Assembly: GCA_036245525.1 (NCBI GenBank) | Contig: BTPG01000008.1 | Coordinates: 34,798,850 to 34,862,849 of the forward strand | From: Semisulcospira habei | Taxonomy: Eukaryota; Mollusca; Gastropoda; Semisulcospiridae | DNA: 64,000 nt | Reading direction: 5' to 3' | Part shown: positions 39,201-64,000 of the stretch, piece by piece | Position numbering within the stretch: the first letter of the stretch is position 1 | Layout of the letters: every line of letters begins with the position of its first letter | Notes under the pieces: model-generated | Seen by the model: the letters and a program-made list of their open reading frames with translations, nothing else | The model's database searches: none | What the model was told of the DNA's origin: nothing | Translations under genes and position numbers: made by a program

Positions 39201-42200
39201 CTCGGTTCCCGGCTGTGTGTTTTTGCACTCGGGTGCCTTGAACTGTTGTTACTTCTGTGGTTCTTCTATGGGTGCCATTGGACAAGTTCGCATGTTTACC
39301 GGACCTCTGGGACTTCCGTCGCGGACTTGGCGCCCTTGCCCGACGTATGTGGCCCCCGGCTCCTTGGTGTGGCGCTCCCGCTTTCTGCGTGTCAGGTTTT
39401 TCCCTCCCCCCCAGCCTCTGGATGGCTAGGTAAGGTCTCAGTGTGTGCCAGCGACTGGCGGCCCTGGCACCGGGCAGCGGCATCACTGTTGTGATTTTTT
39501 TTGCTTACTCATCGGAGTTTTGCGTGCACGGGTGCACTCCTGATGTGGCGTAGCAGCCAGGACCGGTCGTTTCTTGATGATGATGATGTCCACCGGTTAT
39601 GCGCATCTACTCCATGCTAGCAGCATGCTCAGTGCATAAATAAATAAATGAATAAAACAATAAAAACAACACGCAACTTCTGGTGCACCGTAGTCCTTTT
39701 AGCCTATACATATGATATCAAGCATCCCTGTAGGAAGGCCCTGGCTTGTTATAAGCACTGTCAAATGCATCATTAGCAACTGATGCCGGCGGCGAGTGCT
39801 GTCCCCATTAAGAGGCGGTCAGCCATAGAAAGGGCTACTGGGATAGGTGCTTATATAGGTGCTTATTATGATATGCTGTTGCAGTTGTCAAGTCTGCACC
39901 TGCACCTGATGTGGCGATTTCCAGTGGCCGAGTGATACGCATGCAGTGTGCCTCTCCTGCACCCCTTGTGCCTCCGGTCGCGCCTGCGATGTCTGCGCGC
40001 CCTGGTTAGAGGAGCTGGTCCCAGCTCTGGAGCTGCTACTGGCGTGAACGTCCACCGCAGCCTCACGAATGCCTCGGCCCCTGACCGACGAAGAAGCACC
40101 CACACTGCTGTTGGGGGACAGCATAGGAAGGATCCCCCCTTGCGCACCAACTCGCTCGAATCTGGTCCGCAGCGAGTTTGCTTGGCCCACTTTGCAGAAA
40201 ACAAATGGCTGCCAAGCCCTGACGTTGGGGGACCTACTCTCCCCTTGTGCACCAGCTCGCTCGAGCCTGGCCCGCAGCGAGCTAGCTCGCCCCGCCTTGC
40301 GGAACACAAGCATCACAAGGAAAGAGAAAGCAGTAAACCACGCACCGTCCTGATGCCGGACCTTCGGCATCATCTTGCAGCCCACGACAGGCGACCCCTG
40401 GAACGGACACAGCTTGGACCTTGGATGCCTGCTCGCGCGTTTGGAGCCCCGGTCGACACGTTCCTTCACGGACTACGGTCAGGAGCCAGCAGTTCCACGG
40501 CTCCGCGATCCCGGACCCTCAGCGTCATCGCCCGCCCCGCTCCTCGGTCTCTGCCCGTATTTTCTGCACTCCCCCTCCCAGCGACCAGGTCAGCGTCGGG
40601 TTCCTTGTTTCCTGACACCTCGACCTTGGCCTCGGACTTCCCCGCAGGTCTCGGAGGATTCCTGCTCGCCCCCTCGCACTCGCTCTCCTCGGATTCGCTC
40701 CTCGTCACGGCGGAGCCCGCCACCTTGCATCCTCAGCACCGGCCTCCCGTGCCTCCCGAGGATGATGACGCCCTCAGCGTTTTCCCGGACGATTCCACTT
40801 CAGCGCTCCTTAGCCGTTCGGCCTCCCCTCCCACATGCTTGTCGGATGCTCCTTCGGCGCTGACAGCCCTTCTGACAACTAGGTCGGAGACTCTTCGCTC
40901 CCTGGTTGAGGAGGCACACCTTGTCACTTCTTTTCTTTCTTCCCCGCCCCCCCCCCCCAACCCCCCCCCAGAGGAAGCTCGGCCTGGTGGATGCTGATCG
41001 CCCTTCCGGGAGGTTCAGATCCTTGCTGCAACCCCCGGGGTTCCGGGATCCTCGTGATGCCTTCTCCGATCTCCTACAGCAGGGCTCCAGTGTGGATGGG
41101 GTCTTCTTCTTCTTCTCCGATGGCCGGCTGATTTGGTTATCGCCTTTCACCAAGTTGGTACGTCGGTCATTCGCAGAGCTTCGCTAATGCCCTCCCAGAG
41201 GTGGACCCTCCAGCACAGCTACGTGGAGGTGGACTTCACGCTTCACAGCGTTGCATCCCACCGGGTCTGGAATGGACAGCGTCCCTCTTCCGCAACGCCC
41301 TCACCTGTGCAGGAGTTCTCGACATGGCTACGCAAGCTGTCATCTCTCGTGTGGAGGAGGCCTGGCACCCGTCAATCACACTGCTGTTAGGGGACCTCCT
41401 TGCCTTAGCCCTGGCCACCCGGGTGGCTTACCATGCTTCCGTCAGCACCATGGCTGCTGCCGCGTTTGCGGCCTGCTACGCCGAACCTACGGAGGTAGCT
41501 GCTACTGGCCCCTTTCAGCGTACTGCTCCACTTCGATCCCGACAGATGCTGCAGGACGTGAACAGGGACCTCTGGCCCGCCCGCGCCGTCTCCACCCGGT
41601 TTCAAGCTGCCCACAGGCCGTGCGTCTCGCCCAGTGGACTGTTGGACCCTCCTCTCGCCTGCCCTCCAGGCGTGGGGCCGCCCACCCTCCAGGCATGGGG
41701 CCGCCTGCCCCTGCCGCCGGACGTCCCCGGCAGCCCTCCATCCCTGGCCGCCTCCTGCGACGCAGCCTTGTGCGGACTTCCGTCCCTTCGGACCGGCTCA
41801 GGCAGCCGCTCTACGAGGAGAGATCGCAGAAGGACGCCACGGAGGTGGTGCCGCGTCACGGCTTTCCAGCCTTCTACAGCTGGTCTCCTTCAGGTCTCCA
41901 AGCCCGGAGGCAAGCGGCGCCCTATCTTCAACCTCTCGGCGCTGAACAGGTTCATCGCCGCGCCGATCTTCCGCATGGAATCCGCCAGAGCCCTTCGGTC
42001 CTGAGCCTGGACTTTCGCTCGCTTCCGGCTTGTGCCCGTTCACCAGGTCTCCAGATGCCTTCGGTGGCGTGGTCTACCAGTTGCGGGCTCTTCCTTTGGC
42101 CTCAACCTCAGCCCCTGGGTTTTCATCTGCATCATGGGTGGCGTCGTTGCCAAAGCCAGACGGACGTCCCCGAGCCCAATTTCGTATTCCTTGACAATCT

Positions 42201-45200
42201 GCACCTGCGCAACCAATCGGCGGCCGCCTTGGAGAAGGACCGAGACGCCTTGCTGGACCTTCTCGACATCCTCAGCTTCTTAGTCCACGTGGGCAGTTGG
42301 ACCTCGCCCCGTCCCGCCGCTTCGTTCACCTGGGCTTGGAGTTCCGGACTGACCTCAACCTGGTGAGGCTACCGGAACAACAGATACAGAAGTTGGCGAA
42401 CCTGGCTTGGCTAGTGTTTCAACAGGAGTTGGTCTCTGCCATAATGTGGTTGCAGCTCCTGGGCCTGATGAGTGCGGCAGCGGACCTATTCCCCCTTGGC
42501 CGTCTCTACTCTCGTCCGCTTTAACTGCCCCTACTTCTTCACTGGCAACTCTTGGCTGGTGACCTCGAGACTCGAGTACCAGTGCTTCCGCTGCTCCTCC
42601 CGCACCTCCTCCGTTGGGCGGATCCTAATGGTTCGCAACCAGATACCTCTCTACTCTCCCCCCCCCCCCCCAGTTGTCCGTCTGTGTCAACGCCAGCCGC
42701 ACCGGCTGGGGCACGCACCTGCTGCCGACGTTCCCCACAGCTTCCGGCAGCTGGACCATGGACCTCGCGGACTAGAACATCAACTGGTTGGAGCTGCGCG
42801 CGGGTTGGCAAGCCCTCTTCACCTGGGACGGCTCTTGGACTCCAGGATCTGCTCATCCTTTCCGACAACTCCGCCGTGGTCTCCTACACCCAGAAGCAGG
42901 GCGGGACTCACTCCCCCACCCTCTGCATTCTTCTCTACCAGCTCCTCCGGTGATGTGAAGATCGTGACATCTTTCCGATGATCTATACGGTGTGGGGGAC
43001 TCCCTGATCGACCTCTTCGCAATGAGGTGGAACCGCCAGCTGCCCCTCTTCATCTCACCCATGCCAGACCCCTTAGCCTGGGCAGTCGCTGCGCTCTCCA
43101 TCTCCTGGGAAGGTCTCATTGCGTATGCCTACCCTCCCACGGTCCTGGTCCCCAAGGTCCTGCTCAAGCTCAAGGGATGCAACGTGATTCTGCTGCTAGT
43201 GGCCCCGTTCTGCTGGACCAAGTCTGGGGCCACTGACCTTCTGATCCTCGCCACGGGGCCCCCCTCTGTGGCTCCCCACACCACGCTCCATGCTCAAGCA
43301 ACCATGGCAGGCACTATACCTTCCTGTCCCGAGTGACTCCTACTACACGTCTGGAGATGGTGGGGCACGCCCTCTCCGCTAGAGGCTTCTTGAATGCAGT
43401 GGTGGAAGCTATCGCTGCAGGCTGCAGACCCTTGACCCTTCAAGGCTATGAAGGAACGTGGCGAATCCTGGAGTCTTGGTGCGGCGACCGACACCTCGCT
43501 CCTACCGATCTGACATCCCCCAGCTGGCCGAGTTCTTCCTCTGGCTTCGCCGAGCAGCACTTGGCGCCAATCACCATCAGGGGCTACCTCACCTCATTGC
43601 CGACACGCCCCAACCCTTGGGCCGCTCGGACCCCGGCAAGTGCAAAGACATCGCTGACCTGGTGGCGGACATAACGCAGAAGACCTGCTTCTTCTCACCC
43701 TTGCCATGGCCTCCAGAGTGAGTGAGCTGCATGCGCCTTTGGCGCACCCCTCCTGCTGCAGCTACTGACGGACCCGACCTTCCTGGCCAAGACGCAGTCC
43801 CATTGACCGCCCCCAGGTGATCGCCATACGGCCGCTGATGGGGATAAGCCTCAACCAGGAAGCCAGACAACTGGACCCGCTGAGAGCCTTACGCGTGTAC
43901 CTGCGCCGAACCAAGCCGCTCCACACGTGACGCGCCCGCCTTTTTTCTCTTTCTGTCCCCAGGTAGATCTGACATCTCGGCCCAGACGATTCTGTCCTGG
44001 GTCCAATGGGTGATATGCTCTGCTTACCAGGACCTCTGCCCCGACACTCCCTATCGGCTACACATCAGGGCGCACGAGGTCAGAGCCGTCGCCGCAAGCA
44101 TTGCCTTCGACCGTAACTGTGCCATCAGAGACATTGGGGTGGGTTTGGGCTGGCGAACAGAGTCGACCTTCACCTGATTCTACCTCTGAAACCTGGCTGG
44201 CCAGCGAGACAACCTGGCCCTGGTGGGGGACGTAGCTGCAGTGCAACACTCCTTCCCGGCACCCTCGGTGCCGTTGGTAACTCTTAACTAAAATTATCGG
44301 GAGTTTGCTCCGGGGAGGGCACGTCTAGCTAGCTTGGTCGGGTCATGGGGTTTTCTGCGGCACCCACCTCCTTTTCGCTATTCTTCCTTATAGTAATGGC
44401 ATCGGTAATGTTTTTGAGGAAACAAATGAATTTTTCTCTAAAATGTATTTTTTCGAAAAATACTTACCGATGCCATTACTCGGACGGCCCTCCCACCTGC
44501 CCCGCTTGCCGTTAGTCAGCTAAGCGAATAAACTGGCGTGTCTGCACAGGGCAGTTACCCTATGGGGTGGGACGGGAGGCTACTCAGGGTACTGGGTCAC
44601 GGCACCCCTAAGTTGCCTCCCTTGGCCCTATAGGTACACATCGTAAGTTTTTGGCTAAAATTATGTAAGCTAAGAGACAGTTCCTTATAGTAATGGCATC
44701 GGTAAGTATTTTTAAAAAAAAAAATACATTTTAGAGAAAAATTTATATCACTAGTAATAACAGTCAAACGTGTGAAAGGCAACCACTGAAAGGACTTTAA
44801 GACAGGTGGCCTCCTTACAAAAGGTCAGCTAAGTACAACGCAACAGAGAAAGACTGTGGGGCAAAAAAATGGGTTGTCTGCTTAGACAGGGGGAAGGCCT
44901 GTGAAGTTGGAGTGTGGCCACCTAGATGGTGTGATAATTAAAACCAGCTGCACATGTAACCTAAAACCCTCTACTAAACTTGCCTACATGGTGACGCAAT
45001 AAAAAGCAGCCACATGCAATCCTCTCAGTCTACTGAGTGACTCTGGGAGTGTTCAGCCCAGGAATGCAACAACAACAACAACAATATACAAGAGATGGAT
45101 CAGACATAACAGCTCAAGCATAAAGCCAGATTCGCTTTGTACCACAAGGAGCCAAGCAAATCAGGCTCTATGCTTGAGCTGTGCAGTGTTTGTCTTGCAC

Positions 45201-52539: not shown

Positions 52540-52657
52540 GTAAGTTAGTCATATACAAAAAATTGTATTGTTTAACCCATTTAGCCCCGAGTACCTACAA
52601 CAGGAGATGGAGAGATAGTAAAGTGGACAGTTGATGGGCACCCCTCCCCCCAATCTA

Positions 52658-52820
52658 TAGATTTATTTGATCCTCTCCGTATTTAGACAAACGAACTCCC
52701 AACACTTACCGCCAATGCCTTAATCGCCCAGCCATTTTAGTTCCACTCCAGAAATCATTCAAGCTACGTTTTTTGATCAGCTACCAACCCGCGATTATTA
52801 AGCCAGATCCCCCACTCCCA
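52658..52820. repeat. Direct repeat, left copy (about 160 bp)
   Basis: CTATAGATTTATTTGATCC ... TTTTTTGATCAGCTACC ... GATTATTAAGCCAGAT; second copy at 53548-53710, about 85 percent alike. Confidence 0.75.
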
Positions 52821-53084
52821 CCTAAATTATTAATGCTGTCATTGACTTTTTTAAACAAAGGCTAATTATTCAATCGGCATTTACAGTTTTACCTTTGTCA
52901 ATGTAAACGACTCATTTACGATCAGCTGTTTTCGGGAAATGACTACTTGCGCCATTGTGGGAATTCTCGTTAGGCATTATTGCCGCAACCCCCCCACATA
53001 GAAGTAAGTGACGTCAATGTTGCTATTAGCAACTGAGGGTAGGTTTCACTTTTTAATACAGTTAAACCTGTCTTTGTTTAGACA

Positions 53085-53210
53085 GGCACACTCAAATACA
53101 TGTGACATACGCATTACACACAGCACACGCGACATATTTACCATACTCAAAATACATGACACACGCGGCACACTCTCCATACTCAAAATACATGACATAC
53201 GCGGCAGAGA
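53085..53210. repeat. Short tandem array of about 40-bp units
   Basis: Repeated ATACTCAAAATACATGACA and ACACGCGGCACA segments; related words (CACGCGGCATAC, ATATGCGGC) recur at 53815-53885. Confidence 0.6.
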
Positions 53211-53439
53211 ATAATCCTTTCCGTAAATAAACAAACGCACTTGACCAAATACATTTAACAGCATTATCTGCCCAGTCAGGTCCCCCAACCCCTTGGAAAC
53301 AAAAGGCTAGTTAAAATATCTTCCCGAGAAATAGTGACTACCGTACACACCACCCACCACTCAATGCTGTCAGAGTTGGCCTTCCTGAGAATACTTCCTG
53401 TTCATGGTAAACAATAGTCCTCTATGCCCAAATAGTGTG

Positions 53440-53480
<41 letters not shown>

Positions 53481-53547
53481 GACGCCAATAGTTTTACCCC
53501 CAGAGAATAATAATGTGGGCTCCTGAGAATCCTATTTAAGAATCTAT

Positions 53548-53710
53548 AGATTTATTTGATCCTCTCCGTATTTAAACTAACGCGCTCCAGCACTTACCAC
53601 CAATGTCTTAATCGCCTAACCGTCCTAGTTCCATTTCAGAAATCATTCAAGCTACGTTTTTTGATCAGCTGACAACACACGATTATTAAGGCAGATACCC
53701 GACCCCACCT
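53548..53710. repeat. Direct repeat, right copy
   Basis: Pairs with 52658-52820. Between the two are the tandem array and a (CT)n run at 53441-53480; the spacing of 890 bp suggests two fragments of one unknown repeat. Confidence 0.75.
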
Positions 53711-54083
53711 AAACACACGCCTTGGCTGAGAGGTGTTTACGCGGCTGTTATTACTGAAAAACAAACAAGGCTGCCAAACCCCACCTATTTAAAGTGTCGA
53801 GGTAAAATCGTATGCGACACACGCGGCATACATTGTACAGACACACGTAACATGTGCCGTACAGACATATGCGGCTTATGCGGCACACACACAGCAAGAG
53901 AAAACAAAAGCTAATTAAACTACCGACGATTACAACACAGTCAGTATATAGTACTGAATACCTAGTCAAGCCGTCACGCGTCACCGGTTTATAACACACA
54001 CACCCGCTTAGTGTACATAAAGCGGAACAGCCAGCTGGCTAATTTTGGCTCATCATAGGCGAAAAATCTTTCTCGAGCAGTGA

Positions 54084-54191
54084 AGAACATTCTCGATTCT
54101 AAAACTGTCCCCCTACTACTGAAACGGTCCCCACACCACTGAAACTGTCCCCATCAAAACAAGGGGGACAGTTTTGCATTCTAGAATGTTC
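54084..54191 (+). promoter_or_regulatory. Heat-shock-element-like sites
   Basis: TTCTAGAATGTTC (54179-54191) is three perfect alternating nTTCn/nGAAn units, the binding consensus of heat-shock factor. AGAACATTCT (about 54085-54093) gives two more. Between them a hairpin AACTGTCCCC...GGGGGACAGTT. A related but weaker block (CTAGGATGTTCC ... ACGTGTTTGCT) recurs at 54546-54590 just before the TATA box. Confidence 0.45.
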
Positions 54192-54290
54192 TAAAGCACG
54201 TGTTTGCTGTTGTAATCGTCCCATAAATAGCGTACATGACGTAGTTGGCTACATGTCAGCATTTGCTGATTCACAGCTCCAGTAACCTGT

Positions 54291-54523
54291 TCCCACGAAA
54301 GGGACCTTAAGTCGCTTTTGACCGAATGGAGCTACAGACCAAAAAGTGTGCAGGGGGTCATCTTGGATTAGTTCGAGTGATCAACTTTAAATGCTTGTTT
54401 CTCACTTAATAACCAATCTACAACAATAGTCTGTACATCAAATTAATTGGTTTTGATAGTAGATTGTAATGGTGTAAATATTTCAAAACTCAAAATTTCC
54501 GACTTATGGTCCCTTTTGTGGGA
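54291..54523. repeat. 233-bp MITE with TIRs
   Basis: TCCCACGAAAGGGACCTTAAG at the left and its near-complement CTTATGGTCCCTTTTGTGGGA at the right. It separates the two promoter-like blocks. Confidence 0.65.
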
Positions 54524-54604
54524 TATAGAGGTATAAAGTCGACTCACAGTCTAGGATGTTCCAAATGACGTGTTTGCTTATGAAATCGTTTGCAATACTG
54601 TAGG

Positions 54605-54612
54605 TATAAAAG
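54605..54612 (+). promoter_or_regulatory. TATA box upstream of the 97-aa ORF
   Basis: TATAAAAG, 86 bp before ATG 54698; transcription would start near 54635-54640. Confidence 0.55.
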
Positions 54613-54697
54613 TAAACCAACAGCCAATAATCATTCTTTCCCGATTACATCCGTACCAGTAGGACAGTAAGCAGGGCCAAACGATAGCCAGGCATAA

Positions 54698-54991
54698 ATG
54701 GCGAGCCACCAAAACAAATATGTTGAGGAAATGGAGATTGGTGAAAAAACGTACACTCAAGCTTTTTTAGACGAGCTGACAAAAGACGAGACTCTTGCTA
54801 AAAGTCGCCTACGCATAGACTTAGCAAGAGCGAAAAATAGAAAGGAAACATGTTTTCAAAACATGAAAAAGACAAAAAAGAGAATTAAAATTATGGTTGA
54901 AAAGCTACGTGAGCAACAATCATCGTTTGACGCAGCGGTAGCTGACATACAGAGGCTAAAAGGTCTCCTTAAAGAAGAAAAAAGTGGCTAA
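54698..54991 (+). CDS. 97-aa coiled-coil protein of unknown family
   Basis: Intronless ORF, MASHQNKYVEEMEIGEKTY to the C-terminal KGLLKEEKSG. It is highly charged, with a Lys/Arg-rich stretch at residues 46-70 (NMKKTKKRIKIMVEKLREQ) and heptad-like spacing of hydrophobic residues, so a helical coiled coil is likely. The sequence favours a real gene: TATA box at the right distance, an in-frame start, and no simple-sequence bias. It is followed at once by an 18-codon ORF (54992-55048) whose stop codon contains the ribozyme cleavage site. It could belong to the viral element or to a separate ribozyme-bearing unit. Confidence 0.55.
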   Translation: MASHQNKYVEEMEIGEKTYTQAFLDELTKDETLAKSRLRIDLARAKNRKETCFQNMKKTKKRIKIMVEKLREQQSSFDAAVADIQRLKGLLKEEKSG

Positions 54992-55039
54992 ATGTGGCAG
55001 TGGTTTTTTCTACACGTCTTTGGCATACCTCGCGAGGGG

Positions 55040-55094
55040 GAGCCATAAATACCTTCAAGGTATTCTGATGAGACCTAACAGGTCGAAATGGCTC
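55040..55094 (+). ncRNA. Hammerhead ribozyme (type III layout)
   Basis: All core elements are present in order. Stem III 5' strand GAGCCA (55040-55045); cleavage triplet A-U-A with cleavage after 55047; stem I hairpin AATACCT/AGGTATT (55048-55064, 3-nt loop); core CTGATGA (55065-55071); stem II GACC/GGTC with loop TAACA (55072-55084); GAAA (55085-55088); stem III 3' strand TGGCTC (55089-55094). Every stem is fully paired: 7, 4 and 6 bp. Stem III is open, which is type III. The RNA would cut itself in cis within the TAA stop of the preceding 18-codon ORF. Tertiary loop I-loop II contacts are possible but not demonstrable by eye. Confidence 0.88.
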
Positions 55095-55336
55095 ACAGGT
55101 TAGTACTCTATTTTTCATAGTTTGAGATCTTTCTTTCTCATATGGTGTCTAATCTGTGACACTAACCTTTGAAAGCTCTGACATTTCCAAATCAACTCCA
55201 GCGTTATCCAGGGCCTTTTGAAAGCATTTGTGTACCCAGGTAAGGGAACAGTGTAATTTAGTGTAACACATGACCGCTTTTTAATACCAGGAAGGTGTTC
55301 GCTTTCAATAGACGTGTAGTGAAATAAACACCATTA

Positions 55337-55434
55337 CAAGTAGGGACAGGAATATCCGAGACAGACGGAAGGGGACTTCACCCCCCAAGTAGGGACAGGA
55401 ATATCAGAGATAGGCGGAACGGGACTTCACCCCC
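55337..55434. repeat. Two tandem 49-bp units
   Basis: CAAGTAGGGACAGGAATATC begins each unit (55337 and 55386); both end in GGGACTTCACCCCC. Four or five substitutions separate them. Confidence 0.85.
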
Positions 55435-55457
55435 GTGCTGGGAAAAAAAGTAAATTA

Positions 55458-55538
55458 CAAGTACATGATAAGTAACAAGTAACCTATAAGTTACTTTCAA
55501 CTGACACATAACTTATAGGTTACCTTATCATGTACTTG
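55458..55538. repeat. Long imperfect hairpin at the left margin of the viral element
   Basis: 15 bp (CAAGTACATGATAAG) plus 14 bp (GTAACCTATAAGTT) pair perfectly with 55510-55538, with a 6-nt bulge and a 17-nt loop. Flanking sequence to about 55630 is rich in ACAAG/AAGTT words. Confidence 0.8.
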
Positions 55539-55686
55539 CTAGTTAGTTGTCACAAGTTCTAATAAGTAATTAAAATAAGAACTTTTAAGAACCTAAACAT
55601 AACAATTTACAAGAACTTGACCCTAGTCAACAACTTACTTGGACAGAATTTCCAAGTTACAAGGACAACAAGAAAACTTTTTTTTC

Positions 55687-55887
55687 TCAGTAGTACTCTG
55701 GTGGTGGGGCTGATGGCGTCAAATGAGCAGGCATAAAAGGCATGACATCTCTTTGTGAAGAGTATTTCAGAATTAATGAATGATTACCAAAACTGATCTT
55801 TACTTGCCTAACAGTCCGTAAACTTTTTTCATAGTTTCTTCTACGCCTATTTTCTTTCCTTCCTCTAAAAAAGATTGCTTTAGCTCT
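55687..55887 (-). CDS. -1-frame extension with PPxY tail (no ATG for its first two thirds)
   Basis: Open frame overlapping the 3' end of the 211-aa gene in the -1 frame and running 113 bases beyond its stop. The distal part reads like real protein (e.g. VKISFGNHSLILKY) and ends SAPPPEYY, a PPxY motif recognised by Nedd4-family WW domains. It has no upstream ATG, but the overlapped gene carries UUUUUUA (55872-55866) in the phase required for -1 frameshifting, 59 codons before this frame's stop. Splicing or an internal start at 55742 are alternatives. Confidence 0.5.
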   Translation of the reverse strand, partial: RAKAIFFRGRKENRRRRNYEKSLRTVRQVKISFGNHSLILKYSSQRDVMPFMPAHLTPSAPPPEYY

Positions 55888-56435
55888 TCAACATTCGCGG
55901 GTTGACTACGCATCTTATTCTGTATTTCAGACTTCTGTTGCTTGTAATTTGCTAAATCATCCTGGACTCTTTTAAATTCGTTATCGTCAATTTCATTATT
56001 TTCCAAAGATTTACTAATAATAAGTTTCATACTCGTCAGCTTAGCTGCTGCGAGCGTACTTAATGCTTCATGCTTCTGCAACTTAGTATAAAATTTTTTG
56101 TTAAGGGCTTCCATACCAAAGCATGCCAGGTTTGTGGCAAGGCCAACAGCTTCAACAGCAATTCCTACGACACTTCCCACCCCCGTTGCAAACAGAGTTA
56201 TACCTCCTACAGATAATCCGGCCGAAACCACCCCCATGGCCATTGATGTGTTGTGTACAGAATTGAAAACCGTATTGTAACGGCGTTTACACCTCGAGTA
56301 TTTTGCTTGTTCTTCTTCCAAATACTTCAACGCTTCTGTAATATTCATTAAACGGAATGAATCTGCCTTTAATGTTTTATCACGCTCAATAGGCTCAAGC
56401 TGCTCAGGTGGTATTTGTGGATACAAGTTCACCAT
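55800..56435 (-). CDS. Viral-element protein, 211 aa, central hydrophobic domain
   Basis: MVNLYPQIPPEQLEPIERD start; a charged helical stretch (residues 34-55); a long glycine/alanine-rich hydrophobic region at about 65-108, long enough for two membrane passes; then a helical, Lys/Glu-rich tail. I recall the same layout in uncharacterised proteins next to Polinton-like genes of invertebrates, without a known function. A virion membrane or membrane-active protein is plausible (inference), and the PPxY extension would strengthen the analogy with adenovirus protein VI. Starts 21 bp after the upstream gene's stop. Confidence 0.7.
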   Translation of the reverse strand: MVNLYPQIPPEQLEPIERDKTLKADSFRLMNITEALKYLEEEQAKYSRCKRRYNTVFNSVHNTSMAMGVVSAGLSVGGITLFATGVGSVVGIAVEAVGLATNLACFGMEALNKKFYTKLQKHEALSTLAAAKLTSMKLIISKSLENNEIDDNEFKRVQDDLANYKQQKSEIQNKMRSQPANVEELKQSFLEEGKKIGVEETMKKVYGLLGK

Positions 56436-56456
56436 TTTTTATGACAAATATTTTTT

Positions 56457-57335
56457 TTAATCAGCAATTACATTTTGCAACTCTTCAAAAGTATACAATT
56501 TGCTAGCATAATAAAATGCAACAAGATCAATGTGTTCAAGGTTTATGTAAGTTAGACGAACAAAAGTTGTTTTGTCAACCACCACCTTGACAGTGGGAAT
56601 ACTGCTTGAAACATTAATAACATCATTATTTTTTGTAATGGCAATAAAGACCTTTGATGATTCTGTTACTGTTTCATTCCATGTAAGTTTAATTCCTTGT
56701 GCTATATTTGCCTCTTTTGCAGAAGCAACAGATTTCATGATAATTTCAAATACTATTGTCGCTTCTCTAGCCACGACTAAGCTTGCTGGCATAAACACAA
56801 CAGAAGTATCTGATCTACCCTTTCTAGTTGTAAGAAGATATCTCCGTCTCTCATAATTTTCAACTTTCAGTTTTTCTCTGCTATTGTTGTCTGGGGCAAA
56901 ACTTGGAACAAGGCTTACAATAAGCGGCCCAGAATTAACAACCTTCCTAAACACTAAGGCGCCTTCATCATCAGTGTATACATAAGGACTAATAAATTCA
57001 ATCTTTATGTCCCAGTCAATTGTGGGTGGTGGTGCCGGTACAGGTGAAACAACCCACTTACTACCCACATGTATTAAGTTGTAAGGCGCATTATTTACAG
57101 GTGGAGTAGGTACAGTAACATCACGCAGCTGACCAAGTTTAGGAATCTGTTTTTCACCATCTTTCATGTCAACAATTACTTTCCTCTTGTACATGCCATT
57201 TGAATCAAGTTCAAAACCATATATTTCTCCAATTTCCCCTTCCTTCTCAAAATCCTGTACGTCTGCCAAATCTTTCAACTCTGTTACTGGACACGCAACT
57301 GGTATGATTCTAGGCTTTGGACCAAGACCACTCAT
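56457..57335 (-). CDS. Viral-element protein, 292 aa, probable structural protein
   Basis: I take ATG 57335 (MSGLGPKPRIIPVACPV), since the four upstream codons begin with TTG. The N-terminal third is linker-like with PTPPVNNAP and PVPAPPPTIDW. The rest is predicted largely beta (alternating hydrophobic strands such as GPLIVSLVPSF, KVVVDKTTFVRLTYI), as in capsid-associated or fibre-type proteins. Family not recognised. It lies between the penton candidate and the 211-aa gene, all on the minus strand with about 20-bp gaps. Confidence 0.65.
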   Translation of the reverse strand: MSGLGPKPRIIPVACPVTELKDLADVQDFEKEGEIGEIYGFELDSNGMYKRKVIVDMKDGEKQIPKLGQLRDVTVPTPPVNNAPYNLIHVGSKWVVSPVPAPPPTIDWDIKIEFISPYVYTDDEGALVFRKVVNSGPLIVSLVPSFAPDNNSREKLKVENYERRRYLLTTRKGRSDTSVVFMPASLVVAREATIVFEIIMKSVASAKEANIAQGIKLTWNETVTESSKVFIAITKNNDVINVSSSIPTVKVVVDKTTFVRLTYINLEHIDLVAFYYASKLYTFEELQNVIAD

Positions 57336-57355
57336 TTTTATAAACAAAAATAAAA

Positions 57356-58066
57356 TTATTTAATTTCCAACACTACACTAAAATCATGCATCACAACTGG
57401 TTTGCCATCCTGATTAGTTACATATAAACACAGTGATTCAAAGAAACTGGAACCTAATTTCTTAAACTGTAAAGGAAATCTAACAACCACACTTTCACAA
57501 TAGGGAGCAGTTCCTGGCGGAAAGCATCTTAACAAAGTTGAAGGCTTTCCATTGTGAACATTTTCAGTTGTGTTTAGTTCTTTTAAATAAACATTTAGTA
57601 CTGTGTGTACTGGCAAATTGACAGGATATCTTCCAATTACTTTTTGTTTATTTGGTTTCAATAGACCTTCGTCTGATAATGACCAATCCTCATCTGGATG
57701 TATTATTACTTGGCCTAAAAAACCAAGTAGCCTTACAAGCCTATCTGATAATGAATACTGACTACCTTTCGGAAATTCCAATGTAACAAGTAAGTTAGCC
57801 TGATTAATAGTTGCTTTAATTTTAAATTCATTTTGAAACCATTCAGCTAAAGTACAAAAGTCATAATACCCAGATCGTAAAGCATCACTCTTCTTTCCAC
57901 CATCAAGAGTTCCATATACAAAATAATTATCATCTGTTACATTAAACCACTTTACAGTGTAAAACATTTCATGGATAGCTACAGCCTTACTACCATCACG
58001 ATTATCAATCCCATTAGTTAACCACACTGGTTTGCTTGTGTCAAGATTTGTTAAGGTAATAAACAT
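57356..58066 (-). CDS. Probable penton / minor capsid protein (single jelly roll), 236 aa
   Basis: MFITLTNLD start; beta-rich throughout. The segment VAIHEMFYTVKWFNVTDDN and the block YYDFCTLAEWFQNEF fit the early strands and the conserved helix of Polinton/adintovirus penton proteins, in which a GxY-x-L/C-x2-L-x2-W/Y motif follows strand C-D. The size is in the penton range. ATG 58066 is 26 bp from the divergent ATG at 58093. Assignment rests on layout and recalled motif; structure prediction should settle it. Confidence 0.6.
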   Translation of the reverse strand: MFITLTNLDTSKPVWLTNGIDNRDGSKAVAIHEMFYTVKWFNVTDDNYFVYGTLDGGKKSDALRSGYYDFCTLAEWFQNEFKIKATINQANLLVTLEFPKGSQYSLSDRLVRLLGFLGQVIIHPDEDWSLSDEGLLKPNKQKVIGRYPVNLPVHTVLNVYLKELNTTENVHNGKPSTLLRCFPPGTAPYCESVVVRFPLQFKKLGSSFFESLCLYVTNQDGKPVVMHDFSVVLEIK

Positions 58067-58092
58067 TTTTATTATCTCATATAAAAAGAAGA
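58067..58092. promoter_or_regulatory. 26-bp divergent intergenic spacer
   Basis: Contains TTATTATCTCATATAAAAAG. The TATA-like word is too close to both ATGs to place a start site 25-30 bp downstream within a leader, so either leaders are near zero or the signals overlap coding sequence. Confidence 0.5.
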
Positions 58093-59346
58093 ATGGAATT
58101 TAAATCACCAACCATTACCACTACAAACGCATTTCAATTTAATGTAGATGCCAAATATAATGTCGCACCAACTTATGAACAGAAAATAATTCAACTAAAT
58201 CAGCTTGACATGGCTGTGTCTGAACAAGATCTATTCCAAGTCAAAGTACCAAATCCGTTTGACCATTACCTAAACCCTCCAATAACAGATGACTCTACTG
58301 CAAGAAAGTGGTCTTCTAGCCCACTACAGATGTTTCAAAATCAACTCAACTTTGCAATACTATGTTCAACTACAGGCTGTGGTGTTTCATTCACAGATCA
58401 TTTGAATCACTCAAACAAACTGATTAGATCTGTGTATCGTTTTCATGTTTATTACCAGCTTAGACGTATTCTGTCAGAACTGCATACCCCACTGCCCACT
58501 GAATCCAGTTTCAACAGGTATAACAACCCCATGGATATGAAAGCATTTGAACGCATCTGTAATGAATTTAACATCAGTACAAAGTATGATTTCACACAAA
58601 AACTTGATGATCACAAAGGCATGGGTACATTGTATTATGCTTTGAGTCACAGAAAATACCCTCAAGATTATTACCCTGGTTACACTTCATTCTCATCAAA
58701 ATCACAAGTCTGGTTAGGATCAATAGAGCAGAAACAGTCTAACGCCTGGACCACATTTATTTTAGATAAATCAGACGGGTTTACTCAAGCGGGAGTCGAG
58801 CGCGTCAATGAGTCTATCAGAACATATGTCTGGTGTTTACTAGGAGCACAATCACTAACAAAATCAAACATTTTGAATGGAAGTGGTAAATTTGAAGCAC
58901 AAAAACAGTTTCTTGCAAATCTTGAAGATTCAATTAACTCAACAGTTGATCTCCCATCAAGCATACAGCGTTACCAAGACGTTTTAAGATATGCCAGATC
59001 AAAAGTTGACTTTGTAGTTGGCATCGGGTTATACATGTTACCATCTGACCTTCACCTCCAAATGGGTACAATAACAAATTATAATAATGAAATCATTGTT
59101 GCAGGTGTTGGTCAGAAATTAGGACTCAATCAATCTGTAAACTTGGGGGCCACAACCACACATGTACAGACATTAAAACCATTAATGACACCAGCACCAG
59201 TAACGTCATCACCCGTACAGACAGTAACAACCCCGGTCCCAACACCAACACCAACCCCAACCCCTGACACCCATGAGTCAGAGAGAACAGCATTGGTAAT
59301 AGGTCTCACTGGATTAGGGGTATTACTTCTTTACCTGTTTCATTAA
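58093..59346 (+). CDS. Viral-element protein, 417 aa, tail-anchored
   Basis: MEFKSPTITTTNAFQFNVD start. A globular domain (residues about 70-345) contains GVSFTDHLNHSNKLIRS, RFHVYYQLRRILSEL and GVERVNESIRTYVWCLLGA. A Pro/Thr stalk (357-392) follows and a C-terminal transmembrane helix (ALVIGLTGLGVLLLYLF). I recall close relatives as uncharacterised proteins in cnidarian and other invertebrate genomes adjoining the same capsid and ATPase genes. The stalk plus anchor suggests a surface protein of a membrane-bearing particle (inference). Last 24 bases overlap the convergent gene. Confidence 0.72.
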   Translation: MEFKSPTITTTNAFQFNVDAKYNVAPTYEQKIIQLNQLDMAVSEQDLFQVKVPNPFDHYLNPPITDDSTARKWSSSPLQMFQNQLNFAILCSTTGCGVSFTDHLNHSNKLIRSVYRFHVYYQLRRILSELHTPLPTESSFNRYNNPMDMKAFERICNEFNISTKYDFTQKLDDHKGMGTLYYALSHRKYPQDYYPGYTSFSSKSQVWLGSIEQKQSNAWTTFILDKSDGFTQAGVERVNESIRTYVWCLLGAQSLTKSNILNGSGKFEAQKQFLANLEDSINSTVDLPSSIQRYQDVLRYARSKVDFVVGIGLYMLPSDLHLQMGTITNYNNEIIVAGVGQKLGLNQSVNLGATTTHVQTLKPLMTPAPVTSSPVQTVTTPVPTPTPTPTPDTHESERTALVIGLTGLGVLLLYLFH

Positions 59347-60543
59347 ATAACCCACTATTAACCCTCCTACTGTCACCAAAAAGACCCACACATGTTCTGC
59401 CATAAACCCTACTGCCTTTGCCGCTGTACTAATCAGCCAACTGACAACAGTGCCTATAATGCCAGGCAAAGCGTCCATTGCTTTCACAGCCAATTTCTTA
59501 AGCAAGTCTGATATGTGAGACAGTTGTTTCTTTACCCACGACTGTAAGTCTTTTGGATCTGTGGGGACTGGGGTTGGTGGTGCTGGAGGTGGAGAACCAC
59601 CCCCGGAGACAGCCAACACAACTGTACTGATAATAAACCCCAGAGCTGTAATTAAACTGGCAACTGTGATACCCTGTTCTCTGAAAAGTGTTTTTAGTCT
59701 CTCAGCCAGAGTAGTGTCTTCGTGAAGTATTTTCTGAATAGTTTCTCTAATCCTGTTGACCTGTGATTTTAGTTTTTGTCTTCCAATACTAATCGCTTCT
59801 AACCTTCCTGATCTTTCTATCTGCAAATCATTTAATCTGTGCTGTATTCTTTCTTTCATTTCTGTGTCAAGATTCTCATTGTCTGCTGTAGCCAGTTTCT
59901 CTTTTTCACGTTCTATGTGTTTATCAAGCTCTCCTAGTTTGGCTAAATTATTTACCATCTCACCTCTTATTGTCTGCAGTGATTTATCCAACCCTATAAT
60001 CTCTCTCATTGACAAAGGTGGATCATCTATTGTTTTCAAAGCGTCATTTATTTGTCCTTCAGTAAATGAAGTTTCTTGTATCACTGTGTTTGCTATTTCT
60101 GGTAGGCTTGTTACTGGTGCCATTTCAATTTGTTGCCCTGTTGGCAACTTTGTTTGCGTGTCGTGAAGCGCACTAACAAGTCTTGGGGGAACAGGAGACC
60201 CTCCAATACCAAGGTATCTTGCCAACCCAGAGTTACCACCGACTTCACCTTTAATTGTACTTAAAGCCCTAAACTTAGAAGGATTATTTTTATGTGTTAG
60301 ATTTATTTTCCCTCTGTCTGTATTTACAAATAAGTGTCCTTTATCATATTCAAACTGATTAGGATCTATTACATCTGGGCGCGCTCCAACACTGTCATAA
60401 AATGAGTTTACTTTGTCTTTTAACAGTTCATGATGCATACTACTACTACTAGTTACCATTCCAGTCATATCTGTGATACTGGTATCATAGTCATTCATGT
60501 CATCCATTTCAAAATCTTCATGATTAAATCCTCCCGCTGCCAT
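59323..60543 (-). CDS. Viral-element protein, 406 aa, coiled coil with C-terminal membrane segments
   Basis: Acidic N-terminus (HEDFEMDDMNDYD); coiled coil at about 185-265 (GEMVNNLAKLGELDKHIERE onward); then TTLAERLKTLFREQGITV, a motif I recall as highly conserved in this family, directly before a hydrophobic segment (291-313). A proline linker and two more hydrophobic stretches (about 361-381, 385-401) end the protein. Probably membrane-associated; role unknown. Its ATG is 40 bp from the divergent major capsid ATG. Confidence 0.72.
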   Translation of the reverse strand: MAAGGFNHEDFEMDDMNDYDTSITDMTGMVTSSSSMHHELLKDKVNSFYDSVGARPDVIDPNQFEYDKGHLFVNTDRGKINLTHKNNPSKFRALSTIKGEVGGNSGLARYLGIGGSPVPPRLVSALHDTQTKLPTGQQIEMAPVTSLPEIANTVIQETSFTEGQINDALKTIDDPPLSMREIIGLDKSLQTIRGEMVNNLAKLGELDKHIEREKEKLATADNENLDTEMKERIQHRLNDLQIERSGRLEAISIGRQKLKSQVNRIRETIQKILHEDTTLAERLKTLFREQGITVASLITALGFIISTVVLAVSGGGSPPPAPPTPVPTDPKDLQSWVKKQLSHISDLLKKLAVKAMDALPGIIGTVVSWLISTAAKAVGFMAEHVWVFLVTVGGLIVGYLMKQVKK

Positions 60544-60583
60544 TGTTTTATTAATTTATTATTTTTTATTGTGCATAATAAAA
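60544..60583. promoter_or_regulatory. 40-bp divergent AT-rich spacer
   Basis: Almost only A and T (TTTTATTAATTTATTATTTT), flanked by the 406-aa gene and the major capsid gene. Start-proximal AATAAAAATG on the plus side and AATAAAACAATG on the minus side. Confidence 0.5.
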
Positions 60584-61867
60584 ATGACACAGTCTTACGG
60601 ATCAAAGTTAGACCCATACAGAAAACTACGTGAGCCCCTGGGTGTTAAGGCCATTCGACAATCAATCGTCATCACAAACAATCCAAGTACCATAGACCAG
60701 AACCAAACACTTACAGTCAAGTTTCCAAACCTAGGCCCCAGTGACGTTATTGTTCCTGGCACTGCACGCCTTGCTTTTAATATTGAACTATCATCAGACG
60801 CAGACGTGAACAGAACACTAGTTAACAATCTTGGTAGAGCAATTGTTAGAACTATTAAAGTAAAACTTGAAGGACAGGAAGTGTTTAGTCTTGATGACTC
60901 AGATGTATTCTACTGTTACAAAGACCTTTGGCTAACAAGAGAAGAACGAGAAGACCGTATTTACAAAGGCATACAGCCAGATAATGTTGGTAAACTTCGA
61001 ATTGACGCCGGAGATAAAGTAACTAATACAGCCATGGATGTTATAATGGCTGAAACATATGGATCCAGATTCTACATTCCACTTGAGTTTGAAATCCTAA
61101 CAGCTCATCTGCCTTATTATCAAGGAGCACTGAATGACCGTCTGAGTTTTGAACTAACCTTCAATGACTACTCCAAAGTTATTAAATCATCTGATCTTAG
61201 TGCAACATATAAGATCTCTAACATTTCCTTGGAATATGAAATTGTCACACATACTGAACTAGCCAGACTCATTCAAAATCAGTACCAGTCAAGACTTCCA
61301 ATTTATTATGATAGGGTGATTAGACATAGTTTAATACCTAAAGACAAAAGCGACCCAATGTGGAACATAAACTTAAACACGCCAGCTAGGTCACTGAAAG
61401 GTATTCTTATGTTGTTTGTTGAACCTGTGAGTCCATACAAACGGGATTCAGAAAAATTCTACAATCCTAAGATTACACATTTGTCCTGTACAATCGAAGG
61501 CCGTCCTAATCAAGTGTACGCGTCTGGAATGTTACCTTATCAACACTACGATGAGATCACAAAGTATTTTGCGGGTGGAAGGATTAGAGATAAACCAGCA
61601 AACATTGCGTGTAAAGATCTACATCTGTATGACGTTAGGATTGGACAATACCTTACAAACAAATACGCACTGTGGCTAGACCTTCGTAGTACAGATGATG
61701 ACTACCTTCATGGGTCAGGACGAACTGTTGAGAATGGTAGTGATGAAATAACAATTCAGATACAAAAGAAGGTTGAAACTGCTGCAGCCATAAACATATA
61801 TTTGTACCTGATATATGACGCACAACTCAATATACAAGACAGTAGACTGAGTGGACACATATATTAA
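60584..61867 (+). CDS. Major capsid protein (double jelly roll), 427 aa
   Basis: I take ATG 60584 (MTQSYGSKLDPYRKLREPL); the frame is open further up only through TTG. Beta-rich with the family-type N-terminal strand region TITNN-like (VITNNPSTIDQNQTL), VIVPGTARLAFNIEL, then LVNNLGRAIVRTIKVKLEG and DDSDVFYCYKDLW, and a second barrel beginning near residue 170. The place beside the packaging ATPase and penton matches the morphogenesis module of Polintons and adintoviruses. It is much shorter than adenovirus hexon (about 950 residues), consistent with small surface loops. Confidence 0.8.
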   Translation: MTQSYGSKLDPYRKLREPLGVKAIRQSIVITNNPSTIDQNQTLTVKFPNLGPSDVIVPGTARLAFNIELSSDADVNRTLVNNLGRAIVRTIKVKLEGQEVFSLDDSDVFYCYKDLWLTREEREDRIYKGIQPDNVGKLRIDAGDKVTNTAMDVIMAETYGSRFYIPLEFEILTAHLPYYQGALNDRLSFELTFNDYSKVIKSSDLSATYKISNISLEYEIVTHTELARLIQNQYQSRLPIYYDRVIRHSLIPKDKSDPMWNINLNTPARSLKGILMLFVEPVSPYKRDSEKFYNPKITHLSCTIEGRPNQVYASGMLPYQHYDEITKYFAGGRIRDKPANIACKDLHLYDVRIGQYLTNKYALWLDLRSTDDDYLHGSGRTVENGSDEITIQIQKKVETAAAINIYLYLIYDAQLNIQDSRLSGHIY

Positions 61868-61886
61868 AATTATATTGTGTATTAAA

Positions 61887-62492
61887 ATGAACCTAATGAC
61901 CCTTGACCCACACTGTGGCTTATTTTGTGGTGCGACAGGGTGTGGTAAAACTGAATTTGTACTTAACCTCTTACAAACAAGATACATACACCACTTTGAA
62001 AACATTGTAATATTTTGTCCTACAATCAAACACAACAAAGCTTATCACAACCGTTTATTCATTTGGACTGATCATAACATTTACTTAATTGATCCTGAAA
62101 AGAAACTGAATGAATACCTACAATATTTTTACAAGAAATTTGAAGGACAGTCAACTTTATTTATTGTCGATGATTGCTCTGCAGAGAAAGACATTGTCAA
62201 AAAGAGAAATACTTTAGCAGAACTTGCCTTCAGTGGTAGACACGCAAACATCAGTGTTTGGATTCTCACTCAGAAATATAATGCTGTACTAAAAGATTTT
62301 CGAGAACAGTTAAAGTTTATCTGTTTGTTTTACTGTAAGGATCGTGACAGCTTTGAAGACTGTCTCAGAGAAAACGATGTTATACCAAATAAACATGAAC
62401 GAGACTGTGTAAAAAATAAACTGAAATCAACTAAGCATCTAAAGCTTATTTTAAAGACAGATCAGCCCACTGGGTATGGGTTAGTAAATTAA
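61887..62492 (+). CDS. Genome packaging ATPase (A32/FtsK-HerA type), 201 aa
   Basis: ATG 61887 (MNLMTLDPHCGLFCG). Walker A GATGCGKT at residues 15-22, Walker B LFIVDD at 91-96, then the A32-type motif FSGRHANISVWILTQKY whose glutamine is the sensor residue. No membrane segment, as in the short Polinton/NCLDV form rather than full FtsK. The enzyme pumps genomic DNA into the capsid. Starts 19 bp after the major capsid stop, so co-expression is likely. Confidence 0.92.
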   Translation: MNLMTLDPHCGLFCGATGCGKTEFVLNLLQTRYIHHFENIVIFCPTIKHNKAYHNRLFIWTDHNIYLIDPEKKLNEYLQYFYKKFEGQSTLFIVDDCSAEKDIVKKRNTLAELAFSGRHANISVWILTQKYNAVLKDFREQLKFICLFYCKDRDSFEDCLRENDVIPNKHERDCVKNKLKSTKHLKLILKTDQPTGYGLVN

Positions 62493-62519
62493 TTTATCTT
62501 TTTGGTTTGTCTTTAAAAA

Positions 62520-62915
62520 ATGATGGACGGACAAGAGGATCAAAATTGGCCTATTGGTAAATTCATGGATATTACATCGAGTTTCAGGGGTTTTATGCTT
62601 ATTAGTGACTTAAAAACACAAGTTAGACACCCTTTTTCAACACTTCCAACACCAATGAAAATATATATGACATATAGTTTTTATCTTGGATATTCTAATA
62701 ATTTTCCATGTTATAATAATAGGACAAAAGATTTTTTAGTTTATGATGCTAAATCTGACTGGTTTAAGATTATGTGTTTACAAATATACCATCAAATAAA
62801 AAAAGAAAATAAAAATTTTAAATTTATTACTGTAAATAAAACGATATTACACATGCAAAAGATTGAACATGATACAACAGAAGACATATCTATGAAGTGG
62901 CTTATTAGTTGGTAA
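62520..62915 (+). CDS. Viral-element protein, 131 aa, unknown
   Basis: MMDGQEDQNWPIGKFMDI start (a second ATG follows at once). Mixed alpha/beta, no membrane segment, no recognised motif; contains MTYSFYLGYSNNFPCYNN. Lies 27 bp after the ATPase. A polyadenylation signal AATAAA follows at 62946-62951. Confidence 0.55.
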   Translation: MMDGQEDQNWPIGKFMDITSSFRGFMLISDLKTQVRHPFSTLPTPMKIYMTYSFYLGYSNNFPCYNNRTKDFLVYDAKSDWFKIMCLQIYHQIKKENKNFKFITVNKTILHMQKIEHDTTEDISMKWLISW

Positions 62916-62945
62916 TTAATTTTGTCTATTATATAGGTTTTAGTC

Positions 62946-62951
62946 AATAAA
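62946..62951 (+). terminator. Candidate polyadenylation signal
   Basis: AATAAA between the 131-aa ORF and the polymerase gene; would end the capsid-ATPase-131-aa transcripts. Confidence 0.5.
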
Positions 62952-63007
62952 GTGCCATTTTCATTATGTAATTTTCTATTTATTTTTTTGTCGGACAAAT
63001 AAAAAAG

Positions 63008-64000
63008 ATGGACAACCGTCAAAGATTAAGAAATGTGTTTCACACAACTGACTTACCTATATCTAATATTTACAATGTCTATGAATCAATAGAAAGATCT
63101 TTTTTAGTCATACAAAATAACCTTCTTTCTGATAGTGTAAAGATTCAGATTGTTGCAAAAATAGAATTTGCCAGAGATGTTGGTGAAGTTATTGTAACAT
63201 ATATCTCGACAAGGCAGCACACAGTTAATTCGAGAAGAGAACTAGAGAAAGTGTTTAGAGAAAGATTGTTACCAGACTTCCATGAAGCAATTGACAGAGC
63301 AGAAATGCAAGGGTCTGGCTGGCATGAAGGCCTTGTACATGAACTACAACTGAAGCAGTCAAGATATCATCCTATACTAGGTAAATCATGGATACCACTT
63401 CCAACTGAGGTTGCAAACAAAAAGGCTGTAGTCAATATTCAAAACAATGATAATTTATGTTTTATGTGGTGTGTGCTTGCTAAACTTCATTTTGTAAGAG
63501 TAAAACCTGATCGTGTATCTAACTATACCAAATTTGTAAATGAACTCAACTTCAGTGGCATTGAGTTCCCTGTTAAAATAGAGGATATAGACTTGTTTGA
63601 AAAACTAAATCCTGGTATATCTGTGAATGTGTTTGTGTGGGAAAATGAATCTGAGAATAAGTTACAGCCAATTAGAGTATCTCCAATTGCCCCAACCTAT
63701 GGGCAGTCAGAAGATAGACATGTTGACATGTTGCTAATAAGATCTGGTGATAACTTTCACTACACAATTATCAGAAGTATGTCAAGACTAATTCATCATA
63801 CAACAAAACATGACGGTAAACAGGAATTTTGTAAAAAATGTTTACAGAGGTTTTCCTCTATTAAAGTAGCACACAAACATGTGCAGCACTGCAGGTCGGC
63901 TGATGACATTCAAACAATACTGAGATATCCAGATCCTGGTAGTCAAGTGTATTTTAAGAACTATGGGAATCAGCAAAAGCTGCCGTTTGTAGTGTATGCA
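63008..64000 (+). CDS. Protein-primed family B DNA polymerase, N-terminal 331 aa, cut by window edge
   Basis: MDNRQRLRNVFHTTDLPI start. Residues about 125-290 match the pre-exonuclease region found in Polinton/adintovirus-like polymerases and their relatives in animal genomes: SWIPLPTEVANKKAVVNIQ, NNDNLCFMWCVLAKLHF, LNFSGIEFPVKIEDIDLFE, then HVDMLLIRSG and a zinc finger FCKKCLQRFSSIKVAHKH followed by C. The exonuclease and polymerase motifs (DIE, SLYPS, DTD) lie beyond position 64000 and cannot be checked. Start codon preceded by AATAAAAAAG. Confidence 0.87.
   Translation, partial: MDNRQRLRNVFHTTDLPISNIYNVYESIERSFLVIQNNLLSDSVKIQIVAKIEFARDVGEVIVTYISTRQHTVNSRRELEKVFRERLLPDFHEAIDRAEMQGSGWHEGLVHELQLKQSRYHPILGKSWIPLPTEVANKKAVVNIQNNDNLCFMWCVLAKLHFVRVKPDRVSNYTKFVNELNFSGIEFPVKIEDIDLFEKLNPGISVNVFVWENESENKLQPIRVSPIAPTYGQSEDRHVDMLLIRSGDNFHYTIIRSMSRLIHHTTKHDGKQEFCKKCLQRFSSIKVAHKHVQHCRSADDIQTILRYPDPGSQVYFKNYGNQQKLPFVVYA

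Follow-up and report, generated by a model that had tools for sequence, protein, structure and literature searches.

Type III hammerhead ribozymes are best known from plants and viroids, and the question raised by the present locus is what one of them would do inside a DNA transposon of the gastropod Semisulcospira habei, whose 1.98 Gb genome contains the window studied here (the whole stretch analysed, 64,000 nucleotides). Excerpts of two papers (PMC7761336, PMC6155905) assign type I hammerheads to animals, type III to plants and circular RNA agents, and all three types to bacteria and phages; the earlier note on this DNA, which took type I as the usual animal kind, agrees with the first of them. 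The animal hammerheads are mostly tied to retroelements or RNA replicons, in which the cut serves RNA copying (PMC7761336, in excerpt). A conserved hammerhead in a DNA transposon has no such copying job and points to mRNA processing.

The ribozyme and its predicted fold

The invariant core of the ribozyme (CUGANGA ... GAAA) is intact, its stems are without mismatch and its stem III is open to both ends (Table 1), which is how the earlier note had described core and stems. The cleavage triplet, AUA/A, fits NUH, and the cut predicted from it falls at the position given before. Stem I would count 7 bp with the addition of a U-A pair closing a 3-nt loop, and stem II 5 bp with its closing U-A. The covariance-model check that had been proposed gave a divided answer: Rfam RF00008 (Hammerhead_3) aligns with the ribozyme along the entire model (38.7 bits, E 1.5e-6; cmscan, stretch of 1.2 kb), but under the curated gathering score of 48.5 bits. 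At the gathering threshold, the Rfam search of the whole window returned no match, and the hammerhead was also missing from a search that covered 11.4 kb and admitted E-values up to 0.5, an omission probably due to speed filters. As a technical observation, Rfam scans can overlook ribozymes of this kind when filters are applied to long sequence, the present one being found in 1.2 kb and missed in 11.4 kb.

A strict descriptor (stems I, II and III of at least 4, 4 and 5 bp, plus the exact core) picks out one place when both strands of the window are scanned, and 350.08 Mb of first-order Markov sequence contain no match, in keeping with the earlier view that such a co-occurrence is unlikely by chance; by itself, the loose word CTGANGA...GAAA is no rarity (6 found, 4.5 expected). 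The 55 nucleotides also fold far better than their shuffles (z -4.9, with none of 200 as good). Their minimum-energy structure is a mispaired rival at -19.5 kcal/mol, versus -19.0 kcal/mol for the hammerhead fold (0.5 apart), ACCU/AGGU being common to stems I and II; co-transcriptional folding should favour stem I. We regard 55040-55094 as very probably a genuine type III hammerhead, for which self-cleavage is predicted. The complete type III ribozyme with an open stem III claimed in the earlier note is thus borne out by the sequence, the covariance model, the descriptor, the diverged copies and the compensatory changes relative to a second ribozyme.

The nearest known relatives in form are the type III hammerheads of plant satellite RNAs, viroids and LTR retrozymes (RF00008), which, according to excerpts of PMC7936874, have the same core, the open stem III and stems I and II of 6 and 4 bp. 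They differ in having a loop I of 6-8 nt (5 nt here) and a loop II of 4 nt (5 nt here), and the window's copy stands singly in a DNA transposon rather than in a circular RNA or an LTR pair. Type III is also the form of the hammerheads of toad and termite HDV-like RNAs and of dipteran genomes; as described in the same excerpts, these have longer helices I and II and a loop-loop pseudoknot, whereas the stems in the window are short.

Table 1. Positions of the ribozyme, its parts and the neighbouring features in the window
Feature	Position	Strand	Basis or remark
Type III hammerhead ribozyme	55040..55094	+	Sequence, RF00008, strict descriptor, diverged copies; predicted cut 55047/55048
Stem III, 7 bp	GAGCCAT 55040-55046 with ATGGCTC 55088-55094	+	Count takes in A15.1-U16.1
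A17	55047	+	
Stem I, 6 bp	AATACC 55048-55053 with GGTATT 55059-55064	+	
Loop I, UUCAA, 5 nt	between AAUACC and GGUAUU	+	
Core CTGATGA	55065-55071	+	
Stem II, 4 bp	GACC 55072-55075 with GGTC 55081-55084	+	
Loop II, UAACA, 5 nt	between GACC and GGUC	+	
Core GAAA	55085-55088	+	
Left terminal inverted repeat, ~249 bp	52611..52859	+	Starts AGAGATAG; inverted partner ends C8:34868823
TATA-like box GGTATAAAAG	54603..54612	+	~90 nt before ORF ATG; motif match only
97-codon ORF, upstream of ribozyme	54698..54991	+	Best Pfam E 0.023, under cut-off
Splice-donor-like 12 nt, CACAG/GTTAGT	55095..55106	+	GT at 55099-55100; predicted from sequence
Convergent 211-codon ORF, after ribozyme	55800..56435	-	ORF list
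Capsid protein ORF	60584..61867	+	Via relatives only
Packaging ATPase ORF, Pox_A32 type	61887..62492	+	PF04665, E 5.7e-16

The host element and the surroundings of the ribozyme

The ribozyme sits 2.4 kb within an element of about 17.36 kb, which runs from window position 52611 to C8:34868823. This element has GATGG at either flank, as in a possible 6-bp target duplication whose sixth base at the left, A, also opens the repeat. In 12 of 12 copies inspected by eye, the element junction carries AGAGAT and the flanks are unlike. The capsid ORF has 3680 relatives at E <= 0.001, and among the 120 listed, P0083 (44% identical) bears PF16903. An rve integrase lies near the right end (PF00665, E 4.6e-10), and the element pieces searched gave no family match to a protein-primed family B DNA polymerase. 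Judged by its terminal inverted repeats beginning AG, its capsid, its Pox_A32-type ATPase and its rve integrase, the host is a Polinton/Maverick-type element, and its size is likewise that of such elements. The "autonomous" layout of the earlier note did not hold, the ribozyme being one part of a Polinton of about 17.4 kb. A location inside the terminal repeat was also rejected, since the ribozyme lies well beyond its ~249 bp. For the 301 bp around the ribozyme, all 40 matches scored (a first look had 209 candidates) are 99-100% identical over the full length, which suggests recent activity of the element; therefore, the host's RNA may still show the cut.

Other mobile elements were considered as hosts and rejected. 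Against a retrozyme, in which two or more hammerheads bound a unit copied as circular RNA, and against a satellite, the window has one hammerhead and the integrase side of its element (L021) none, all but about 3.1 kb of the element being covered. Penelope-like elements, among them Terminons, carry hammerheads (PMC6431247, in excerpt). The arrangement expected of such an element is a type I hammerhead in terminal repeats next to a reverse transcriptase; here the ribozyme is of type III and outside the terminal repeat, and no reverse transcriptase was seen among the ORFs of 52611-64000. The hammerheads of animal retrozymes and Penelope-like elements resemble the present one in standing in a mobile element (excerpts of PMC7761336 and PMC6431247), but they are of type I, in retroelements copied via RNA. 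PMC6431247 also mentions Polintons, and its excerpts on hammerheads concern retroelements; no ribozyme in a Polinton is described in these or in excerpts of PMC8969392 and PMC6361761, and no report of one was found in the open full-text literature, a scope that excludes preprints. A hammerhead beside a splice-donor sequence in a Polinton thus appears to be a new context within the literature searched.

The ribozyme starts 48 nt past the stop of the 97-codon ORF, on the same strand and on its 3' side, and the predicted cut lies 56 nt past that stop. The ORF belongs to no known family at the Pfam cut-off. The earlier note had placed the cut inside the TAA of an 18-codon ORF. That ORF exists, its ATG at 54992 abutting the TAA of the 97-codon ORF in frame and its own TAA lying at the cut, but it is more simply an in-frame, untranslated tail after the longer ORF, and we rejected it as a gene. 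The GT of a donor-like sequence begins 4 nt past the ribozyme, and acceptor-like runs follow further downstream (e.g., 55679-55690). The convergent 211-codon ORF belongs to no family at the cut-off. The host Polinton, the upstream ORF and the donor sequence go beyond the earlier note, and host and donor raise the interest of the ribozyme.

Several further repeats were seen. The region 55337-55434 and 55448-55548 has a twice-repeated 49-bp unit holding CAGAGATAG, with the 8-mer AGAGATAG of the element ends, and adjacent to it a long palindrome between the convergent genes. Upstream of the 97-codon ORF, 54099-54192 and 54291-54523 hold three repeats resembling CTGAAACTGTCCCC, to which there is an inverted counterpart, and a 24-nt inverted repeat (92%) with arms 185 nt apart. 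Elsewhere in the window, the ORFs 23505-24359 (-), 41272-42366 (+) and 14268-14729 (-) look by eye like reverse transcriptases of DIRS-like and LINE-like elements, and 26300-26568 and 38938-39267 consist of tandemly repeated units, 114 and 184 bp long.

Near copies, diverged copies and a second hammerhead

Besides the window, 39 near copies were compared, in which 5 of the 55 ribozyme sites vary. A loop site is changed in 12 copies, in 9 the G-C pair that closes stem II has become G-U, two further single changes each leave a wobble pair, and the core is lost in one copy (L047). Among loci L054-L083 (n=30, a set that overlaps the 39 and includes the window's own locus), the core is kept in all 30 and the stem II G-U is found in 19. 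A G-U at the stem II pair adjoining the core may lower the activity of a hammerhead. For the 97-codon ORF, changes in the near copies number 39, 10 and 28 at codon positions 1, 2 and 3; there being no excess at third positions, the ORF shows no evident sign of purifying selection at this depth.

More distant copies were reached through the 97-amino-acid sequence, for which 150 matches were scored, from 100% down to 53% identical, 23 of them with a stop. From 20 diverged copies (ORF 87-53% identical), the 471 bases after the ORF were taken. The ribozyme model R1 matches 16 of these 20 stretches and gives no match in L084, L096, L097 and L099. The strict fold is kept in nine (L089, L090, L091, L092, L098 and L100-L103), whose ORFs are 53-82% identical to that of the window, and seven of the 16 matched copies are without it. 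For the nine strict-fold stretches, L087 and the window (n=11), the gapped identity is 0.96 over the ribozyme, a value biased upward as these sequences were picked by the core word, and 0.96 over the next 12 nt, where the donor lies and to which this bias does not extend; it is 0.68 over the 60 nt before, 0.73 from about 22 to 150 nt after, and 0.59 in a shuffled control. After the 16 matched ribozymes, GTGAGT is present in 11 stretches and GTTAGT in 2, and no GT donor is found in L086, L093 and L095, in which the ribozyme is damaged too. In the same DNA, AGGTRAGT has a chance of about 0.0004 of occurring in a stretch of 15 nt, an estimate in which the case of the second ribozyme is itself included.

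Two of the diverged copies, L100 and L102, have their upstream side in common and differ directly past the ribozyme-donor block, and therefore elements exchange sequence at this block. Its sameness may partly come from such exchange. The compensatory variation sought in the earlier note is absent within the window's lineage, in which the stem sequences are almost invariant, and is present relative to a second ribozyme, with 7 of 16 pairs changed.

This second type III hammerhead, at 1501-1558 of L022 (C7:82786300-82786357), scores 47.4 bits with RF00008, also under the gathering score. It was the sole match returned by a genome search in which 68 of 316,933 candidates were scored, a search far from complete, since the window's own ribozyme was missed. 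Its host is a decayed sister Polinton that has inverted repeats of about 0.6 kb along with pieces of an ATPase (PF04665, E 4.6e-12), a capsid protein and an integrase, and whose matching DNA is 71-83% like that of the window's element. Compared with the window's ribozyme, all 16 counted pairs are kept and the seven changed ones are changed on both sides and spread over all three stems, in a comparison of two sequences only that assumes homology and is equalled by 8 of 500 shuffles; slid pairings do far worse than the true one. A donor-like AAAAG/GTAAGT follows 10 nt after it.

The second ribozyme has a small open frame upstream and stands on the integrase side, at the opposite element end from the window's, and the gene after it has a homologue that starts just inside the terminal repeat of the window's element; the ribozyme cassette seems to have changed element ends. 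R1 gave no match in L021, which is the integrase side of the window's element, or in L025 and L026, the capsid side of the decayed Polinton, and L021-L026 have no hammerhead beyond the single L022/L024 site. A common gene before both ribozymes was rejected, the 97-amino-acid ORF aligning with neither of the open pieces tried on the L022 side. No relationship was detected between the small ORFs that precede the two ribozymes, and therefore the shared unit is ribozyme plus donor.

Outside this genome, the capsid protein, the capsid alignment (37 rows, 36 from the 120 listed relatives) and the ATPase had no relatives in the viral contig collection, the capsid alignment had none in the genome contig collection, and the 97-amino-acid ORF had none in the protein collection. 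The exact ribozyme word was absent from the viral contigs; a core-plus-donor pattern in eight of them was put down to chance, as the flanks misfit by eye and R1 gave no match. Among the collections searched, the ribozyme trait is seen in one genome only.

Candidate roles of the ribozyme

Going by sequence and copies, we lean towards a ribozyme that would cut an early Polinton mRNA where its first exon ends. The TATA-like promoter would drive a first exon with the 97-codon ORF inside it and the donor just past the ribozyme as its end. The ribozyme would fold while leaving the polymerase and cut in cis at 55047/55048; the cut would leave an ORF mRNA with a 2',3'-cyclic phosphate end and without a poly(A) tail, and would take the donor off the leader exon, which would then be neither spliced nor read on into the downstream genes, of which the first is convergent. 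Support for this cutting role comes from the fold and core, the rarity of core loss (1 of 39 near copies), the place of the ribozyme 3' of the ORF on its strand, and the persistence of the ribozyme-plus-donor block in copies with a diverged ORF, together with the second ribozyme and its like neighbour. Against it speak the Rfam score under the cut-off, the favoured misfold and the common G-U of stem II, as well as the donor of the window, GTTAGT being weaker than GTGAGT, the diverged copies that have no R1 match (4 of 20) or are matched without the strict fold (7 of 16), and the unlikeness of the ORFs upstream of the two ribozymes.

The conservation of the donor hints that cutting and splicing are alternatives, and an active hammerhead might be mainly a splicing switch, in which folding or cutting competes with U1 at the donor and set the share of the leader exon that is spliced to later exons, the formation of the 3' end being secondary. 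Such a switch would fit the conservation of donor and ribozyme as one block, the presence of a donor 4 and 10 nt past two unlike ribozymes and the acceptor-like runs downstream. We judge it rather unlikely, however: splicing would leave the ribozyme in, given its place on the exon side, and 3 of the 16 matched stretches are without the GT, although their ribozymes are also damaged. A comparable tie to mRNA processing has been proposed for the hammerheads of amniotes (PMC6155905, in excerpt), but these are intronic, whereas the window's ribozyme would be on the exon side of the donor.

It is less likely again that the hammerhead is a passenger from a retrozyme-like element, maintained by recent spread and by exchange between elements and without a job in the Polinton. 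The youth of the near copies, the exchange at the block seen in L100 and L102 and the lack of compensatory stem variation within the window's lineage would agree with this. The window has no second hammerhead, though, and nor do L021-L026 beyond the known site; moreover, the ribozyme persists where the ORF is only 53-82% identical, and a different ribozyme has the same donor neighbour. A block conserved for its DNA or simply for splicing, with an inactive hammerhead fold, might account for the almost invariant stems and the slightly favoured misfold, and is very improbable given that the second ribozyme keeps fold and core despite differing stem sequences. Finally, chance resemblance, for which the score under the Rfam cut-off could be cited, is practically negligible in view of the absence of matches in 350 Mb of random sequence, the persistence of the fold in diverged copies and its second copy.

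Returning to the cutting role and its possible alternation with splicing, we tentatively propose that Polintons carry a cut-or-splice module of ribozyme plus donor, in which the hammerhead at the close of the first exon would determine whether the leader is released as an mRNA without poly(A) or spliced onward to later genes, a possibility that we hold to be open to doubt. If it is true, the occurrence of unlike ribozymes in two families, at opposite element ends, would make the module old and selected. Beside a splice donor, the hammerhead would offer an example from nature of a ribozyme that controls splicing or the formation of 3' ends.
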